64,000 bases of DNA, taken from positions 1 to 64,000 of the forward strand of contig JAPLDJ010000027.1 in the NCBI GenBank assembly GCA_026391805.1, given 5' to 3'. This DNA is from Bacteroidota bacterium (GTDB taxonomy: Bacteria > Bacteroidota > Bacteroidia > Bacteroidales > FEN-979). Made by a program: the position numbers and the translations under genes. A model generated the notes under the pieces. That model saw only the letters and a program-made list of their open reading frames with translations. It was not told where the DNA came from and did no database searches. Below, piece by piece: positions 9,395 to 29,695 of the stretch (position 1 is the first letter of the stretch; every line of letters begins with the position of its first letter).

Positions 9395-11755
9395 TTATTT
9401 CCGTTCCAGTGTCACTTTCCCGATCTTTCCGTTGAACTTTGAGGATCCGCCGTAATCAGCAACATGGGTTCCTTCGTCAACACCAACGTCGGCCAGGTCA
9501 TCGACAGAGAAGATGCCCGGCTGCGTATGTGCAATCTTACTTTCGGCTGCTTTTTTGCCGTCAACGGTGATAATACCCGTACCGCCCTTTCCGGCCCCGA
9601 CTCCATCGTACTGAAAGTCATAGACCAGCGTGTACCTGCCCGGTTTCAGCGCCTCATTCGCAACGATATCCGTTGACTCCATGCCAAGGTAGTTGTAGGT
9701 AAAGACAGGCTTACCGTTTTTCATATAGAAGGACAAACCTCCGAACCTGCCGCCCTGGCATACAATGACGCCATTCCCGTTGTCTTTCACTTCCACATCT
9801 GCCGTGATCGTGTAAGATGTATTTCTCAGGTCGATGAAAATATCAACACCCATTCCCTTCATCCCTTCTCCAAGTGTTAATGTTTTACGGTCGCCCATTA
9901 CCGTCGGGCGTCCCATCAGCGCTGCATTGGTTCTTTCCAGCAACCGGTCATCCAGCGGCAGGACATGGTATTTTTCAGCCTCTTTCATAAATAGTTCCTG
10001 CATGGATTTCAGCTTGTCGGGATTTTGTGCGGCCAGGTCATTGGCGAGGCTGAAATCTTCATTGGTATTGTAGAGTTCCCATTTATCTTCCAGTAACGTA
10101 TGGAGGGGTTTGAGTAACCACGCCGGCCTGTGTATCGTGCGGGCAAACCAGCCATCCTGGTAAACGCCCCTGTTGCCAAGCATTTCAAAATATTGAACAG
10201 TATGCTTCTCTTTGGCGCCGGCATCAGGAAAAGTATAGGCCAGGCTGGTTCCTTCAACCGGATCCTGCTGTATGCCGTTTACCATTTTTGGTGCAGGGAT
10301 TTTTGCAATTTCATAAATCGTGGGCGCAATATCAATTACATGCCCGAACTGCGAACGAATCTCCCCTTTAGCTTTGATGCCTGCCGGCCACTGAATGATC
10401 ATTCCGTTCCGTGTGCCCCCGAAATCGGATGCTACCTGCTTGGTATAGGAAAAAGGAGCATCCAGCGCAACAGCCCATCCGGCTGAAAAATGCGGATAGG
10501 TGCTCGGCAATCCCCAATCATCATAATGCTTTAACATATCGGGTACGGTTTCCGGCACCCCACTGAAGTAAGTCATTTCACTGTACATCCCGTTCATTTG
10601 TCCTTCAGCGCTTGCGCCGTTATCTCCCGCGATGAATATGATAATGGTGTTGTCCATTACACCCAGGTCCCGGATCGCTGAAATCAGCCTTCCGGATTCG
10701 TAATCGGTTTGTTCGGCAAACCCGGCATAGACCTCCATCTGGCGTGAGAAGAGTTTCTTCTCATCGGCAGAGAGCTTGTCCCAGTCCTTGATATCAGCCG
10801 GTTTTGGGGCAAGCTTTGTGTTTTGCGGAACGATGCCCATTTTTTTCTGACGCTCCAGGGTCATTTCACGCAACTTATCCCATCCCTGGTCAAACTTTCC
10901 TTTGTATTTTTCGGCCCATTCTTTTGCAACATGGTGCGGTGCATGGGTAGCCCCCGGGGCATAATAGATAAAAAACGGCTTATCAGGCGTCAATGCCTGC
11001 TGGAAACGAACCCATGAAATGGCATGGTTGGTCATGTCGGTGGTAAAGTGATAATTCGGATCTTCCGGCGTTTCAACCAGCGTAACCCCGTCGTAAATGA
11101 GTGGGGCCCATTGGTTGGTTTCACCGCCGATGAAACCATAAAACTTTTCAAAGCCGGAGCGTGTCGGCCAGCGGTCCTGCGGACCTGAATTTGAAATTTC
11201 CCATGGCGGGGTTTCATGATATTTCCCGAAAGCAGCAGTATTGTAACCATTCTGTCGCAGCACTTCGGCCATCGGCGTAATGGTCTGCGGCCTTACCCCG
11301 GTATTTCCCGGAAAGGTGGTCGCAGCTTCCGTAATGCAACCCATGTTGTTGCTGTGATGATTGTACCCGGTGAGTAAAGCCACCCGGGTAGGCGAGCAAA
11401 CTGCAGTGGTATGAAAACGGTTATATTTTAAACCGTTTTCGGCCAGCTTATCCATGGTTGGCGTCGCAACAGGTCCGCCAAAGGCTTCAGAAACGCCAAA
11501 CCCCATATCGTCAATCAGAATAACGATAACATTCGGTGCACCTGCAGGGGCTTTCACTTCAAACCTGGAGGGCGCAGTGGTATTGCGTACATCAAGTTCT
11601 TTATACACAGGCCGGGCCGGCTCTTTGATCGGGAGCACGGTACGATCGAGTTTACCAGCGGCAGTCATTTTGGCGTCCGGGTTGCCGGTGGAGGGTTTTT
11701 GCGCCTGGGAAACCAGGGCCCCTGCAACGAGAATTACGAATAAAAGATTTTTCAT
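9395..11755 (-). CDS. Arylsulfatase (type I, formylglycine)
   Basis: The protein has 786 residues from the ATG at 11755 (MKNLLFVILVAGALVSQAQ, a signal peptide). An ATG 18 nt upstream is possible but would lie inside the previous gene. The active-site motif C120-S-P-T-R is the CxPxR sequence whose Cys is oxidised to formylglycine. The metal pair DD (about 82-83) in VILIDDMGFG and a later DNG motif complete the calcium site. The C-terminal third is an extra beta-rich domain (LGEGMKGMGVDIFIDLRNTSYTI...), typical of long bacterial arylsulfatases of 750-800 residues. It would remove sulfate esters from an organic or polysaccharide substrate in the periplasm. No formylglycine-generating enzyme is encoded in the window. 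The gene follows the small secreted protein by 1 nt. Confidence 0.9.
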   Translation of the reverse strand: MKNLLFVILVAGALVSQAQKPSTGNPDAKMTAAGKLDRTVLPIKEPARPVYKELDVRNTTAPSRFEVKAPAGAPNVIVILIDDMGFGVSEAFGGPVATPTMDKLAENGLKYNRFHTTAVCSPTRVALLTGYNHHSNNMGCITEAATTFPGNTGVRPQTITPMAEVLRQNGYNTAAFGKYHETPPWEISNSGPQDRWPTRSGFEKFYGFIGGETNQWAPLIYDGVTLVETPEDPNYHFTTDMTNHAISWVRFQQALTPDKPFFIYYAPGATHAPHHVAKEWAEKYKGKFDQGWDKLREMTLERQKKMGIVPQNTKLAPKPADIKDWDKLSADEKKLFSRQMEVYAGFAEQTDYESGRLISAIRDLGVMDNTIIIFIAGDNGASAEGQMNGMYSEMTYFSGVPETVPDMLKHYDDWGLPSTYPHFSAGWAVALDAPFSYTKQVASDFGGTRNGMIIQWPAGIKAKGEIRSQFGHVIDIAPTIYEIAKIPAPKMVNGIQQDPVEGTSLAYTFPDAGAKEKHTVQYFEMLGNRGVYQDGWFARTIHRPAWLLKPLHTLLEDKWELYNTNEDFSLANDLAAQNPDKLKSMQELFMKEAEKYHVLPLDDRLLERTNAALMGRPTVMGDRKTLTLGEGMKGMGVDIFIDLRNTSYTITADVEVKDNGNGVIVCQGGRFGGLSFYMKNGKPVFTYNYLGMESTDIVANEALKPGRYTLVYDFQYDGVGAGKGGTGIITVDGKKAAESKIAHTQPGIFSVDDLADVGVDEGTHVADYGGSSKFNGKIGKVTLERK

Positions 11756-11756
11756 A

Positions 11757-12422
11757 CTACTGTTTTTTTGCATATTCGAAATTGGTGAGTTTCACTTTGA
11801 CCTTAGGACCGGGCAGATCGATGTTGACGGAAGTAACCCGGTTGGTCCCGTTTACCGTTTCGTAATTAACATTTGCCTTCACGGGGTCTTCGCCCAGAAC
11901 GGTCGATATGTCCTGCGACTGGTAGAGCAGCAATGTTTTGTCAAATTTGTAGATAAGCCGGTCGCCCTGTTTCAGGATATTGGCTGCATCGGCCTGCAAT
12001 GTATTACCCGATTCGGTGAGGGTGCCCTTGCTGAACAGGTCGACAAACTGACCCTGGCTGAGAATAATATAGTTTCCTACCAAGTTGACGGCGTTCCTTA
12101 CATATTCATTCACATCCGACACAACACTTTTCTGCACCTTGCCACGTAAACCACGTTTCTTTTCCACATATGACTGCTGTGTGATCACAATGGCGCTCAG
12201 TTTTCCGTCGGACCCCAGCGTCATTGAACTCACTGACGACATTGCCAGGTTCCCGTCGACAAAACCTTCCATTTTTCGTTTCCATTGCATTTGAGTGAGT
12301 TTCCCAAGGTTCTCGTTGTACTTCTTCGAGGCATCAAGCCCCATCTGTGTTTTATCAACCTGGCTGAACGATTCCGGCGCCAGGCATACCATGATTAATA
12401 AGAATGAAAGCAATGTTTTCAT
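11757..12422 (-). CDS. Secreted protein of unknown function, sulfatase partner
   Basis: The protein has 221 residues with a signal peptide (MKTLLSFLLIMVCLAPESFS). The mature part alternates strands and short helices (LSAIVITQQSYVEKKRG, NYIILSQGQFVDLFSKG, DRLIYKFDKTLLLYQSQDI, TNRVTSVNIDLPGPKVKVKLTNFEYAKK). I do not recognise the family, and no catalytic motif stands out. The sulfatase ATG follows its stop by 1 nt, so the two are co-expressed and this protein may bind the sulfatase or its substrate (inference). Confidence 0.65.
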   Translation of the reverse strand: MKTLLSFLLIMVCLAPESFSQVDKTQMGLDASKKYNENLGKLTQMQWKRKMEGFVDGNLAMSSVSSMTLGSDGKLSAIVITQQSYVEKKRGLRGKVQKSVVSDVNEYVRNAVNLVGNYIILSQGQFVDLFSKGTLTESGNTLQADAANILKQGDRLIYKFDKTLLLYQSQDISTVLGEDPVKANVNYETVNGTNRVTSVNIDLPGPKVKVKLTNFEYAKKQ

Positions 12423-13626: not shown

Positions 13627-16600
13627 TCAGGTTCCGCCCGTTACAAAATACATGTCGATTTCCCCTTTTCCCTTTGCCGTTACCTTACCCCGGTATTCAC
13701 AGTTGAACTGATCTTTCACCAGTTCGTAAGTGCTTCCTGAGATGTTCACCTTTCCTGACTCCCCGCAGGTTTCCATCCGGCTGGCGGTATTCACCGTGTC
13801 GCCCCAGATGTCGTAAGCATATTTATTTACCCCGACGATGCCGGCTACCACCGGCCCCGTATGAAGCCCGATTCGTATTTCAAAAAACAATTCTCCGGAG
13901 GCCTGCTTCCTGGCTTTATGGCTGATCATAAACTGCTGTATCTCCAGTGCCGCTTTTACCGCGTCGGATGCGTGCGTATGATTGGGAGCCGGCAATCCAC
14001 CTGCCGCCATGTACGAATCACCGATGGTTTTTATTTTTTCCAGCCCGTTTTTTTCCATGATACGATCGAATGCAGAAAAACATTCATGGATTTCAGCCAC
14101 AAGTTTTTCTGCACTCAGCTGTTCGGTCAGCCTGGTAAAGTCTTTGAAATCCGTAAACAGAACCGTTACTTCGTCAATCAGCTTTGCCTTTGCCGAGCCT
14201 TTTTCTTTTAACTCTTCGGCCACTTCATGAGGCAGGATGTTCAGCAGCAGATCATCACTCTTTTTCTTCTCGGCTATGATCACTTCCTTTTGTTCTTCAA
14301 CTTCTATCTTTTGCTTTTCGACCACTTCTTTCTGCTTCCTGATCACCGTGGTGGCTTTATCCACTTCTCTTTCCAGCTTTTTTGCCTTTGCCCTCAGGAG
14401 TCTTCCGTTCCACCATACGATAAGTATCACGGATCCGATGGTGAATAGGATGTAAATGGTGAACATCCACCATGTTCCCCACCAGGGTTTATCAATATGG
14501 ACCGGTATCCTGAAGATGGCTGTATTCCATATCCCGTAGGCATTGGTTGACGAAATCTGCAATTCATAGTCTCCCGGGCTCAGGTTTGTGTATTTCACCT
14601 GCCGGTTGATAGCATCGGTCTGATTCCAGCGGGTTTCATATCCTGTCATGCGATACCGGTACCGGATGGACAGGGGCGAAACCCGGTCGGAAACCGACAT
14701 GATACAGGAAAGGGAATTCTGATTGTGATGCAGGGTAAGGCTTTCACCGGCCGGAACATCATGACACCAGACCGAATCCCTGATCTTCATTTCCCGGATG
14801 ATCAATGCGGGGAATTTTTCTGAAAAATGAAAAGCGTTTGGGTCAAACAGGCTGATCCCACCGCTTCCGCCGAACATCATCCGGCCATTCCTGAGCTTTA
14901 CACAGGCATTTGAAAATTTATTGTCCTGCAGTCCGTTCTCATAGCCGATCCTGAGCGCCGAACCGGATGCCGGGTCCAGTACCACCAGCCCGTTGATCGT
15001 GCTCACCCAAATTTTCCCCGAACGATCGGATAAGATCCCTTTCACATTCGCTATCGCGTTCTCCCCTGCATGGGTATATCTCCGGAATCCCTTTGAAAGT
15101 CCAAGGAATTTATTGAGACCTTTCTCAGTGCCGACCCAGATGGTTCCCCGTACATCCTCATTGACCGCTTCCGCGGTATTGCCAAGGAGACTGGTCGTAT
15201 CCACAGCCGTTTCCATAAAATGATCGACCCGCCTTCGCGAAACATCTACCCGGTTGATCCCGTACTCGCTCGTGCCAACCCAGAGGTAGCCATAACGGTC
15301 TTCAAAAATACAGGTGGCCAGCCTGGAGGTGATCTCATCACCTGCAGGTTTGTTGCAGGAAACAACTGTATGATCGGCTGTATTCATCCTGCAAAGGCTG
15401 CGGTAAGCGCTTACCCACAGTTCATTTTTTATTTTTGCAAGGGAACCAATCAAATCTGCGGGAAGAGAATTTGGATTCAACGGATCATGCCTGTACCTGT
15501 TGACCTTCTTCGTCCCGTAAATGAATTCGAATAAGCCCAGTTCCGTGCCAATCCACAAGGCTGATGAATCGGCAACAAGTGCATTTATTTTCCGGGATAA
15601 CAGGGGATTTCCGGTCACAAGGGAAAGATCCATGAATTCTTTCTTTTTCCCGTCGTACATGAAGATCCCTTTGCCGGTGCCCAGGAAAATATTCCCGTCT
15701 TTCCCGACAATATGATCAACCTGCAGGAAGCCTGAATCCTCTGCAGACAGGGTTGGGAAATACCGGATACCGGATGATGTGCGGGAGTAAATTGCAAGTC
15801 CTTTGTCTAAACCCATCCAGAGTTCATCCCCAACCGGAAGGATGGAGATGATCTTTTCATTTGCCAGATCGATGTCACTGTTCAGGGAGATCGCCTTCCG
15901 CGCTTTTCCATCCGGAGAAAGCAGGTACTGATGAAGGATCTTCGGGAAATGAACCGGGATGAGTTTTCCCGACCTTGTTTCTACCCGGAAAAGCCCTTTC
16001 TTCGTCCCTGCATACAGGACATGATCGCCGGGGGAATATGCCAGTGAACGGATGTCATTGGAAACGGAATTCCTGTTTGACCGGTCGATATAACAGCATT
16101 TAAAGTCGTCCGTTTTTTTATCATATCCGAACAATCCTGAACTGTTGGCGATCCAGAAATTACCTTCGCCATCTTTCACGATTGATTGGGTGGGGCCGGG
16201 AACAGGGATATTTCGCAGGCTGATTACGCTGCAGGGAATGTACTTTTTCACGTCGGCGTAATCCGGTGAGCGACATACTTCCCTGCTGCTGAATTCACGG
16301 AATACCCCGGAATTGACATTCAATAATCCCAGGGGATTGCCGATCCATACCAGTGTATCATTGAACGGGCAGATCACAGTTGCATCCCTGCTGAAAAGGC
16401 TTGTCCTGGGGAAAAAATGAACACCACCGAATTCCTGTTTTTCCCTGTCATAGAGGTTCAGCCCAATCCCTTCCCAGGTGGTGACCCAGAAATTCCCGTG
16501 AACGTCTTCAAGAAATCCCTGGTACCAGTTTGCGCCCAGAACATTGATGCTGCGGATGTCCCCCTGGTTGATGGTGAAATAAAGAACATTCCTTTTGAAT

Positions 16601-18282
16601 GTACCTCTCTTCCGGTCAAACCTGTTGAATCCTGCCCCGCAGTCCAGTCCCGCCCAGACATTTCCCTTCCTGTCCTCATACAGGACCTTCACCTTATTCT
16701 CATTGATTTTGGGATAAGCCAGGTTGGCCGAAGTATAACTCTCATAATCCCGGAAGATCTCCGGAAGGGTTTGGTTTGACGTTCTGCCAATCAACCCTCC
16801 TTCAACATACTTCTTCAGAACAGTTTTTTCACGGGAGAAAACATCCTTCCCCGGATTTTTCTTAAGGATTTCATACCGTGCATTGAAAAACTGTTCAGAC
16901 GAGAGGTCCATGGTATCAATCCCTTGGGCTGAGGTTCCTATCCAGACAGTGCCCCGGTGGTCCTCAATCAGCGAAGTGACATTATTGGATGTAAGGGAAT
17001 GGCTGACATTGTCCTTGTGCCGGTAATGCCTGAAAAAATTAAGCCCGGGCGGATACAGATTCAGCCCGTTATCCGTACCGATCCAGACATTTCCTTCCGG
17101 ATCGCAGTAAATTTTATTCACAAATGTTCCGCTGACCGAGAAGGGATCCGATTCATCGGGCGTGATGGTATAGAAACGGTTTCCCGAAGGATCATACCTG
17201 ACAACGGCTGATCCGTCTCCTCCCATCCAGATATTTCCTTCCCCGTCGCGGGCGGCAGACTGAACCCTGAACGGAATTTTGAAGTTTCTGAGTTTCGTAA
17301 ACTGATGGGTACGTTCATTATAATTGAGAATAGCATGCTGGCCGAATATATAGATCCCTCTTCCCGGAATAGTGGCAAAACAATTTGCTTCCCCGACATA
17401 ACTGGTAATGAATTTTTCCGTTCCGGGATCAAATACATTGACAGCTAAATTTCGTGTTCCGATCCATAGGTTTCCCCGCGTATCAGGGTAGATGTTGTGA
17501 AACAGATACTCGCCTTCAATGGGGGGTTTTTCATGATAATAAGATGCCATTGAATCCTTCGACAGCCAGAGGCAGTCGAGGAGTCCGTTCATGGTTTCAA
17601 TCCACAGATGGCCTTTTTTATCGGCATAGAGCGCCCTTATATATTCGTTAGAAACATCCGTCTTCGGGTGTTTCTTATACGAGTAACGGATAAATTTATT
17701 ACGCGACCTGAGGTACCTGTTCAGCCCTTTCTTCGTGCCTATCCAAACGTTCCCGTTTTCGTCCTCGGCAAGGCTGGTAATAAAATTATCGGAAAGAGAA
17801 GAGGGATCATTCTCCCTGTTAAAGAACCGCTGAATTCCGTACCCATCGGCCTTGTTAAGCCCGTTTCGGGTGGCAATCCACAAATATCCGAAGGAATCTC
17901 TCAATATATCCAGTACATCCGGGTTGCTCAGGCCATCCCGGGTACCGATTTTGATAAACCGGCTGTAATTATCGGGAAGGGTTTCAGGTTGAGGGTCGGG
18001 GTCAGCCGGGGTACCGGGGTTGCGGGTTTTATCCGGAACATTACCGGCAGCCGCCGGTTCAATCCTGCTGAGCGTTTTTGTAACGGCTTCAGCTGTGCCG
18101 GTTGCTTTATCCTGCTTGCGGGAATGACACGCCGTGACCAGGATTACGATGAGAAAATAAAAAAAGAGTTCCCTGAGGATGTGAACTTTCTTTGGTAAAT
18201 ATTTATATGTGGTATTGTCAGGTAGTTGATCAGAAGACGGTAAACGGATATTATTCCCTCTATTTCTGAGAAGATCTGTCAT
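13627..18282 (-). CDS. Transmembrane propeller sensor with class III adenylate cyclase output
   Basis: The protein has 1551 residues. The N-terminus carries a hydrophobic segment ending in a possible lipobox (FLIVILVTAC, about 40-52). About 20 two-component-regulator-type propeller motifs follow (GNVWIGTKKGLNRY, GTIWVGTEKGLNKF and similar), then a Y_Y_Y domain (LRYRYRMTGYETRWNQ...NLSPGDYELQISSTNAYG). After these come a transmembrane helix (about 1271-1292), a coiled coil rich in KQKEVVEKQK (about 1295-1345) and a class III cyclase domain. Metal-binding aspartates are D1378 (LFTDF) and D1422 (TIGDSY). Lys1418 and Asp1491 match the adenine-selecting pair, and N1498 and R1502 complete the site, so ATP rather than GTP is the likely substrate. 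A periplasmic ligand, perhaps a glycan, would control cytoplasmic cAMP. In most Bacteroidota relatives the propeller drives a histidine kinase instead. Confidence 0.9.
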   Translation of the reverse strand: MTDLLRNRGNNIRLPSSDQLPDNTTYKYLPKKVHILRELFFYFLIVILVTACHSRKQDKATGTAEAVTKTLSRIEPAAAGNVPDKTRNPGTPADPDPQPETLPDNYSRFIKIGTRDGLSNPDVLDILRDSFGYLWIATRNGLNKADGYGIQRFFNRENDPSSLSDNFITSLAEDENGNVWIGTKKGLNRYLRSRNKFIRYSYKKHPKTDVSNEYIRALYADKKGHLWIETMNGLLDCLWLSKDSMASYYHEKPPIEGEYLFHNIYPDTRGNLWIGTRNLAVNVFDPGTEKFITSYVGEANCFATIPGRGIYIFGQHAILNYNERTHQFTKLRNFKIPFRVQSAARDGEGNIWMGGDGSAVVRYDPSGNRFYTITPDESDPFSVSGTFVNKIYCDPEGNVWIGTDNGLNLYPPGLNFFRHYRHKDNVSHSLTSNNVTSLIEDHRGTVWIGTSAQGIDTMDLSSEQFFNARYEILKKNPGKDVFSREKTVLKKYVEGGLIGRTSNQTLPEIFRDYESYTSANLAYPKINENKVKVLYEDRKGNVWAGLDCGAGFNRFDRKRGTFKRNVLYFTINQGDIRSINVLGANWYQGFLEDVHGNFWVTTWEGIGLNLYDREKQEFGGVHFFPRTSLFSRDATVICPFNDTLVWIGNPLGLLNVNSGVFREFSSREVCRSPDYADVKKYIPCSVISLRNIPVPGPTQSIVKDGEGNFWIANSSGLFGYDKKTDDFKCCYIDRSNRNSVSNDIRSLAYSPGDHVLYAGTKKGLFRVETRSGKLIPVHFPKILHQYLLSPDGKARKAISLNSDIDLANEKIISILPVGDELWMGLDKGLAIYSRTSSGIRYFPTLSAEDSGFLQVDHIVGKDGNIFLGTGKGIFMYDGKKKEFMDLSLVTGNPLLSRKINALVADSSALWIGTELGLFEFIYGTKKVNRYRHDPLNPNSLPADLIGSLAKIKNELWVSAYRSLCRMNTADHTVVSCNKPAGDEITSRLATCIFEDRYGYLWVGTSEYGINRVDVSRRRVDHFMETAVDTTSLLGNTAEAVNEDVRGTIWVGTEKGLNKFLGLSKGFRRYTHAGENAIANVKGILSDRSGKIWVSTINGLVVLDPASGSALRIGYENGLQDNKFSNACVKLRNGRMMFGGSGGISLFDPNAFHFSEKFPALIIREMKIRDSVWCHDVPAGESLTLHHNQNSLSCIMSVSDRVSPLSIRYRYRMTGYETRWNQTDAINRQVKYTNLSPGDYELQISSTNAYGIWNTAIFRIPVHIDKPWWGTWWMFTIYILFTIGSVILIVWWNGRLLRAKAKKLEREVDKATTVIRKQKEVVEKQKIEVEEQKEVIIAEKKKSDDLLLNILPHEVAEELKEKGSAKAKLIDEVTVLFTDFKDFTRLTEQLSAEKLVAEIHECFSAFDRIMEKNGLEKIKTIGDSYMAAGGLPAPNHTHASDAVKAALEIQQFMISHKARKQASGELFFEIRIGLHTGPVVAGIVGVNKYAYDIWGDTVNTASRMETCGESGKVNISGSTYELVKDQFNCEYRGKVTAKGKGEIDMYFVTGGT

Positions 18283-22055: not shown

Positions 22056-22071
22056 TACTCATCAATAAGTA
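22056..22071. promoter_or_regulatory. Palindromic operator candidate TACTCATCAATAAGTA
   Basis: An imperfect palindrome centred about 53 bp upstream of the predicted plus-strand start and about 66 bp upstream of the minus-strand one. It differs at one base from TACTTATCAATAAGTA at 29416-29431. Confidence 0.5.
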
Positions 22072-23579: not shown

Positions 23580-23751
23580 GGAGTTGATTAAAAAGAAAAA
23601 ATATGCAGAATATTTTCCTTAGATCGACTTTGTTTGTACCTGCCTGCCGGCAGGCAGGCTTCGAGTCCTTTGTGGTTCAATCATTTAAAAATTAACCACA
23701 AAGGCCACAAAGATCTTCACAAAGGCGAATAAGTACTTTTTAGTCAACCCC
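23580..23751 (+). mobile_element. MITE-like element, copy 2, with nested palindrome
   Basis: The 172-bp element has ends GGAGTTGATTAAAAAG and CTTTTTAGTCAACCCC. It is collinear with copy 1 but carries an extra CCTGCCTGCCGGCAGGCAGG palindrome (about 23640-23660) where copy 1 reads gtacttcgag. Its right end is 40 bp before the Omp85-like gene start. Confidence 0.75.
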
Positions 23752-29414: not shown

Positions 29415-29432
29415 ATACTTATCAATAAGTAT
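29415..29432. promoter_or_regulatory. Palindromic operator candidate ATACTTATCAATAAGTAT
   Basis: A perfect 8-bp-arm palindrome centred about 58 bp upstream of the predicted minus-strand transcription start. Its 16-bp core matches 22056-22071 at 15 of 16 positions. Confidence 0.55.
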
Positions 29433-29530: not shown

Positions 29531-29695
29531 AAGGGTGACTAAAAAGTCTTATTCGCCTTTGTGAAGCCCTTTGTGGCCTTTGTGGTTAATTTTTTTTGAT
29601 TTAACCACTAAGGACACGAAGCCTGCCTGCCGGCAGGCAGGTACACACAAAGTCACACGAAGGAAAATATCAAGCATATTTTTTTAGTCAACCCC
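29531..29695 (-). mobile_element. MITE-like element, copy 3 (inverted), with nested palindrome
   Basis: The 165-bp element is in the opposite orientation to copies 1 and 2: it begins AAGGGTGACTAAAAAG and ends TTTTTTAGTCAACCCC. It also carries the CCTGCCTGCCGGCAGGCAGG palindrome (about 29623-29642), at the same internal place as copy 2. It lies 55 bp before the peptidase gene. Confidence 0.75.

Follow-up and report, generated by a model that had tools for sequence, protein, structure and literature searches.

A propeller/Y_Y_Y sensor of probable kinase lineage joined to a putative class III adenylate cyclase in a Bacteroidota genome

In the genome of a Bacteroidota bacterium of the FEN-979 lineage, one gene joins a β-propeller/Y_Y_Y sensor, of a kind that the initial annotation linked to histidine kinases, to a class III cyclase. 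This raises the question of how such a receptor came by its output and what that output would do. The gene lies at 13627–18282 on the minus strand of the 64,000-nucleotide stretch of DNA analysed here (the window). It is a single intact open reading frame of 1551 codons, encoding 1551 amino acids, with an ATG start and without an internal stop. The GC content is even along the gene (0.45–0.52), with no trace of an assembly join. The gene stands apart from both neighbours: the downstream one, at a distance of 290 bases, encodes a cation efflux protein, and the upstream one, 159 bases away, encodes a protein that Pfam did not match. Pfam assigned Reg_prop repeats (168.6 bits) and a Guanylate_cyc domain at residues 1366–1548 (9.9e-56; 188.7 bits against a cut-off of 21.9). 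Together with the PDB matches given below, these assignments bear out the original proposal of a propeller/Y_Y_Y sensor and a class III cyclase in one reading frame. The features of the gene are as follows.

18127..18192, minus strand: hydrophobic signal stretch and lipobox V-T-A-C, residues 31–52, with C52 (from the sequence; a Cys is also present in the nearest propeller cyclases)
17971..18126, minus strand: Pro/Ala-rich linker, residues 53–104 (from the sequence)
14743..17970, minus strand: Reg_prop β-propeller array, residues about 105–1180, apparently of kinase-type lineage (Pfam; PDB 4a2l; G251 kinase)
14494..14676, minus strand: Y_Y_Y domain, residues 1203–1263 (Pfam, 7.7e-15)
14398..14493, minus strand: seam motif PWWGTWW and single membrane helix, residues 1264–1295 (identity switch; seam pattern; helix in the model)
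14245..14397, minus strand: coiled-coil-like signalling helix, residues 1296–1346 (from the sequence)
14188..14244, minus strand: LNILPHEVAEELK stretch before the catalytic domain, residues 1347–1365 (PDB alignment, with the same stretch in AC9), which we take from its position to be the cyclase transducer element
13639..14187, minus strand: class III cyclase domain, residues 1366–1548 (Pfam; residues checked in the alignment)

The Reg_prop repeats and the Y_Y_Y domain ahead of one membrane helix assign the protein to the propeller/Y_Y_Y sensor family. A simple pattern, W-[IVAM]-[GAESN], matched 16 times between residues 135 and 1092; the first estimate of about 20 propeller motifs would be approached if degenerate blades were counted. 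The best PDB sequence match of the sensor was 4a2l/4a2m, the BT4663 hybrid two-component sensor (2.5e-68). We utilized AlphaFold to model residues 101–1290 with 18 rows. The mean pLDDT was 61.2 and the pTM 0.54, with 482 of the 1190 residues below 50, and the model is too weak for counting blades or propellers. Foldseek with this weak model ranked 4a2m first. One membrane helix was predicted at about residues 1271–1289 (helix 1171–1189 of the modelled slice), followed by the coiled-coil-like stretch, in agreement with the single helix and coiled coil first described. Pfam found no histidine kinase, receiver or DNA-binding output in the 1551-residue chain, and the protein is therefore not a hybrid two-component sensor (HTCS).

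Class III adenylate cyclases rely on two metal-binding Asp residues, a Lys and an Asp that contact the substrate, and a transition-state Asn and Arg, and guanylyl cyclases have Glu and Cys at the substrate positions. In the alignment, all six catalytic residues were present (D1378, K1418, D1422, D1491, N1498 and R1502), among them the two, K1418 and D1491, that had been read as adenylate-type. The domain is complete-looking and appears to be of the adenylyl type, and K1418 and D1491 argue against a guanylate cyclase. The best PDB sequence match of the cyclase part was adenylate cyclase 9 (4.3e-60). The same genome encodes four class III cyclases, three of which, both TPR cyclases included, have all six residues. 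In its second propeller cyclase, on contig C6 (L009, 6806–10318), His replaces the transition-state Arg, as it does in a relative in genome G006; the C6 cyclase is possibly inactive or tuned. All six residues were found in 80 of 84 aligned cyclases (84 of 88 rows kept; L110, L126, L149 and L159 dropped), a figure that is biased because the scan that yielded the 79 loci searched with patterns containing the Lys or the Asp. Of nine loci obtained with the Pfam model, four from this genome, the eight readable by pattern all had the Lys and the Asp; L267 gave no read.

We searched for relatives of the sensor alone (1090 amino acids) in overlapping sets of 61, 295 and 395 genomes. The sole near end-to-end match was a protein in genome G251 (contig C7), with 39% identity over query residues 10–1090 (1081 residues; E 1e-229). 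Among the 395 genomes of the phylum, only the window itself passed 1e-60. The C-terminal end of the G251 protein matched HATPase_c (1.1e-26) and HisKA (0.00036; 21 bits, below the 26.9-bit cut-off), and the gene after it encodes a LuxR-type response regulator (Response_reg and GerE). Its neighbours are methionine and folate genes by sequence, unlike those of the window gene. Ten other relatives, chosen from the best matches and with their ends read by eye, comprised nine LytS-type kinases and one SpoIIE-type phosphatase. Four from the 61-genome search, also read by eye, comprised two LytS-type kinases, one SpoIIE-type protein and one hybrid kinase. A cyclase output was seen in none of these ten and four relatives. 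In a phmmer comparison of sensors, the best cyclase sensor scored 170.6 bits, against 245.6 bits for a kinase on contig C20 of the same genome.

The two halves of the protein resemble different partners, with the G251 kinase matched upstream of the membrane helix and cyclases downstream of it. In 50-residue segments up to residue 1250, identity to G251 was mostly 30–58%, and that to two cyclases 10–39% where these aligned in numbers. At residues 1201–1250, the kinase was 50% identical, compared with 24–27% for the two cyclases; from residue 1351 on (1351–1550), cyclases were 62–84% identical, compared with 19–27% for G251. Scores in 20-residue steps placed the change in likeness between about 1260 and 1340, and the exchange point would fall within residues 1264–1295 or just after. 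We generated an unrooted tree from the last propeller part and Y_Y_Y (43 of 45 rows kept; G040 and G043 dropped), in which the window protein (P0001) and G251 were joined at 100/100 and the next nearest sensors by path were on a SpoIIE-type protein and on kinases. Its starred branches imply three or more changes of the cyclase label. Two AU tests, both chosen after this tree was seen, rejected a single clade of all 26 cyclases (p 8e-5) and a grouping of P0001 with seven lipobox-type cyclases (p 3.6e-9). The tree of the cyclase half, built with 45 rows from 28 propeller cyclases and 17 hand-picked other cyclase loci (L110 dropped), placed P0001 in a starred eight-row group that also contains L090, the C6 cyclase, G006 and four cyclases without propellers. 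The trees of the two halves thus disagree.

This pattern looks like a natural exchange of sensors at a seam common to kinases, phosphatases and cyclases. In 39 of 43 sensors, a motif resembling P-[WF]-[WY]-x-[TS]-x-W separates Y_Y_Y from the membrane helix, independent of whether the output is a kinase, a SpoIIE-type protein or a cyclase, and we propose that it is the socket where outputs are exchanged. The initial annotation had spoken of a cyclase instead of a kinase. Relatives have a kinase in this place and the tree evidence makes the wording literal; judged by sequence, "kinase replaced by cyclase" is right in a stronger sense than was meant.

A lipobox had also been suggested at the N-terminus. 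The V-T-A-C ending at C52 follows a 30-residue leader and agrees with a lipoprotein lipobox. A strict lipobox pattern was found in the window protein and in L090, L091, L092, L097 and L100, and in the C6 cyclase and its G006 relative, inspection by eye showed a similarly placed Cys (E-F-S-C and V-L-S-C) that escaped the pattern. The nearest propeller cyclases thus carry a lipobox or a near-lipobox Cys, and the lipobox is probably real. No match to the pattern was found in G251. The pattern also fired in a kinase on contig C12 of the same genome and in the L113 cyclase, both with the usual signal-peptidase site after it. The N-terminus goes with the cyclase group, in which case a cassette would have been swapped between two seams, although this segment is too short for proof.

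We next considered how common the architecture is. Four propeller/Y_Y_Y membrane sensors were examined in this genome: the window protein, the C6 cyclase, the C20 HisKA kinase and the C12 LytS-type kinase. At least two propeller motifs (simple pattern) occurred in 22 of 79 cyclase loci, nearly all titled Bacteroidota, which is not a rate because the scan ranked loci by likeness to Y_Y_Y-to-cyclase. Of the 395 genomes sampled from the phylum, 205 contain a match above the cyclase family cut-off. Among the matches listed in a literature search, none described a Reg_prop/Y_Y_Y class III cyclase. The architecture had been presented as unusual, a view to be tempered by the recurrence of propeller-cyclase fusions across the phylum, with a second one in the same genome. 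The new point, on sequence comparison, is the apparent kinase-lineage origin of the sensor; the propeller-cyclase architecture itself is not unique. A 2023 paper states, in the part of its text available to us, that neither cAMP nor adenylate cyclase was detected in Bacteroidetes (PMC10294740). As separate observations, the propeller cyclases L076, L077, L078, L079 and L121 adjoin a universal stress protein gene, and rdgB-like and PorZ-like genes are also near L077–L079 (the PorZ domain being Pfam-confirmed in L077 only). Type IX-type sorting tails are present in the window, as is a sulfatase gene at 9395–11773.

Several known systems share parts of this layout. The Bacteroides BT4663 HTCS (PDB 4a2l, 4a2m) likewise has Reg_prop propellers, Y_Y_Y and a single membrane helix, whereas the protein described here has a cyclase output instead of a kinase and response regulator, a longer propeller part and an N-terminal lipobox. 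A scissor-like movement is cited for BT4663 in the available portion of PMC8534201. Reg_prop and Y_Y_Y also occur on GGDEF proteins of Xanthomonas; according to the accessible text of PMC6637768, GdpX2 and GdpX3 of Xanthomonas oryzae carry the same sensor type on a second-messenger enzyme, but their GGDEF output (c-di-GMP) is unrelated to the class III cyclase. Class IIIa adenylate cyclases (adenylate cyclase 9; bacterial 7yz9 and 5o5k) have the same catalytic residues, helix and LLxxILPxxVAxxL stretch, and differ in that the sensor here is a propeller array with one membrane helix. Receptor guanylyl cyclases (ANP receptor, PDB 9bcv) have a like layout of outer ligand domain, one helix and class III cyclase, but their sensor is unrelated and the substrate residues here are the adenylyl-type K and D.

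A CRP-type regulator had been suggested as the reader of the cAMP. The genome encodes four cNMP_binding proteins, all CRP/FNR-like. In an alignment with E. coli CRP (reference sequence in full agreement with PDB 1g6n), the Glu72/Arg82 pair of the cAMP pocket was conserved in none of the four, which speaks against this route. Three of them have FNR-like N-terminal Cys clusters, and the fourth (C12) has CEEC. A palindrome shared by two sites in the window, at 22.06 and 29.42 kb, had been put forward as a CRP-type site, and this proposal also failed. With up to two mismatches, TACTTATCAATAAGTA gave 8 matches in the genome versus 7 for the reversed control, a count that includes both strands of palindromic sites, and TACTYATCAATAAGTA at 0–1 mismatch matched only the two window sites in the whole genome. 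The near-perfect palindrome common to 22056–22071 and 29416–29431 lies upstream of two genes and is perhaps the site of a local regulator. Inverted-repeat pairs at 23596–23740 and 29541–29684 (95 and 54 bases, 85 and 91% complementary), 6 kb apart, share a 20-base palindrome and may be a small mobile repeat.

GAF, stress-protein or other proteins may read cAMP in these bacteria. In the part of PMC11107214 available, a universal stress protein of mycobacteria binds cAMP and such proteins are described as confined to three genera of actinobacteria, a limit that makes a stress-protein reader less plausible here. A scan for a CRP with the canonical pocket in 29 loci among the best 30 cNMP_binding loci of 61 genomes, which is not a count, flagged one, L197 (414 amino acids); the scan took the longest frame over the locus middle, the wrong frame for several rows. 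In L188, L194 and L199, a cNMP-binding domain stands ahead of an apparent aspartate ammonia-lyase (by eye).

An HD phosphohydrolase family also accompanies these cyclases. In 8 of 61 genomes (G040, G042, G043, G046, G052, G053, G054 and G060), a total of 11 proteins combine it with a cyclase in one open reading frame. At E <1e-20, the family was present in 11 of the 79 cyclase loci (829 kb), five times fused, in proteins that helped to build the family model, and six times as separate genes. Since most genomes in the window's own family encode a single member, chance alone would put about 0.2 members in 829 kb. In genome G007 (C32), locus L198 (3359–7702) is operon-like, with a TPR cyclase, an FAD oxidoreductase, a 123-residue cNMP-binding protein (GE...RS cassette) and an HD phosphohydrolase. 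On contig C12 of the window's genome (L010, 3–1365), universal stress protein and HD genes adjoin, four genes from a TPR cyclase. The HD gene is not next to the window gene; for the cyclase family, this context supports a real turnover of cyclic nucleotides, as far as sequence can indicate.

Taken together, the protein is likely a single-pass receptor with cAMP output that arose by domain exchange from a kinase-lineage sensor. We infer that a dimeric propeller/Y_Y_Y sensor would lie outside the inner membrane and bind a ligand, probably glycan-like. Movement through the one membrane helix and the coiled coil would activate or inactivate a class III adenylate cyclase homodimer, and the effect would be exerted through cAMP. 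The kinase-lineage sensor, today found on G251, would have been joined to the cyclase at the conserved P-x-W-x-T-W-W seam, which precedes the membrane helix, and the near relatives of that cyclase module are propeller and TPR cyclases. Against this explanation stand the single full-length kinase twin known, the choice of both AU tests after the tree was seen, the weak fold model, the replaced Arg in the sister C6 cyclase and the lack of a cAMP-type CRP in the genome.

Other histories of the gene were weighed. A vertical member of an old propeller-cyclase family could have come about without exchange, its likeness to G251 being convergence or chance tree placement. Propeller cyclases are common among the loci, and some of them are neighbours of the catalytic half in its tree, but the identity to the kinase over the full sensor, almost gapless in 50-residue segments up to residue 650, the lower score of the best cyclase sensor compared with the C20 kinase, and the AU tests all argue otherwise; this reading is already disfavoured and appears very unlikely. 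The exchange could also have run in reverse, with the sensor first on a cyclase and later taken over by the G251 kinase. Only two full-length members are known, and gain and loss are indistinguishable in an unrooted tree, but the sensors next in closeness belong to kinases or phosphatases and the kinase-to-cyclase direction is therefore likelier, leaving the reverse improbable. An assembly chimera of two genes would fit a metagenome-derived genome in 28 contigs and a match pattern that switches at one place, but frame and GC are even across the switch, which falls exactly at a domain seam, and we find a chimera hardly credible.

The cyclase could instead be decayed or silent, or its product unused, in a genome with cyclases and without a cAMP reader. 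The missing pocket pair in the CRP/FNR proteins fits this, and decay does occur in the propeller-cyclase group, because the sister C6 cyclase has lost the transition-state Arg. However, the window cyclase keeps all six residues, as do two others of the four in the genome, HD phosphohydrolases are fused to or adjoin such cyclases in many genomes, this one included, and the operon of a relative combines cyclase, cNMP-binding protein and HD protein. This reading is unlikely. Beyond the likely receptor with cAMP output, we can only tentatively suggest, with more doubt than confidence, a kinase-lineage, glycan-type sensor cassette on a lipobox cyclase chassis. It would feed a cAMP pathway of the phylum in which a dedicated HD phosphodiesterase acts and the reader is not a classical CRP but, for example, a universal stress protein or a stand-alone cNMP-binding protein.

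If the receptor arose as proposed, the gene would be a case of natural receptor rewiring, in a phylum that the available text of one publication describes as lacking cAMP (PMC10294740). The four cyclases of this genome and the 205 of 395 phylum genomes over the cut-off are set against the "none detected" of that text (PMC10294740). The missing CRP pocket turns the cAMP reader in these bacteria into a testable question. Finally, the kinase and the cyclase that share one sensor form a natural experiment across two organisms, in which an identical signal would give phosphorylation in one and, if the cyclase works, cAMP in the other.
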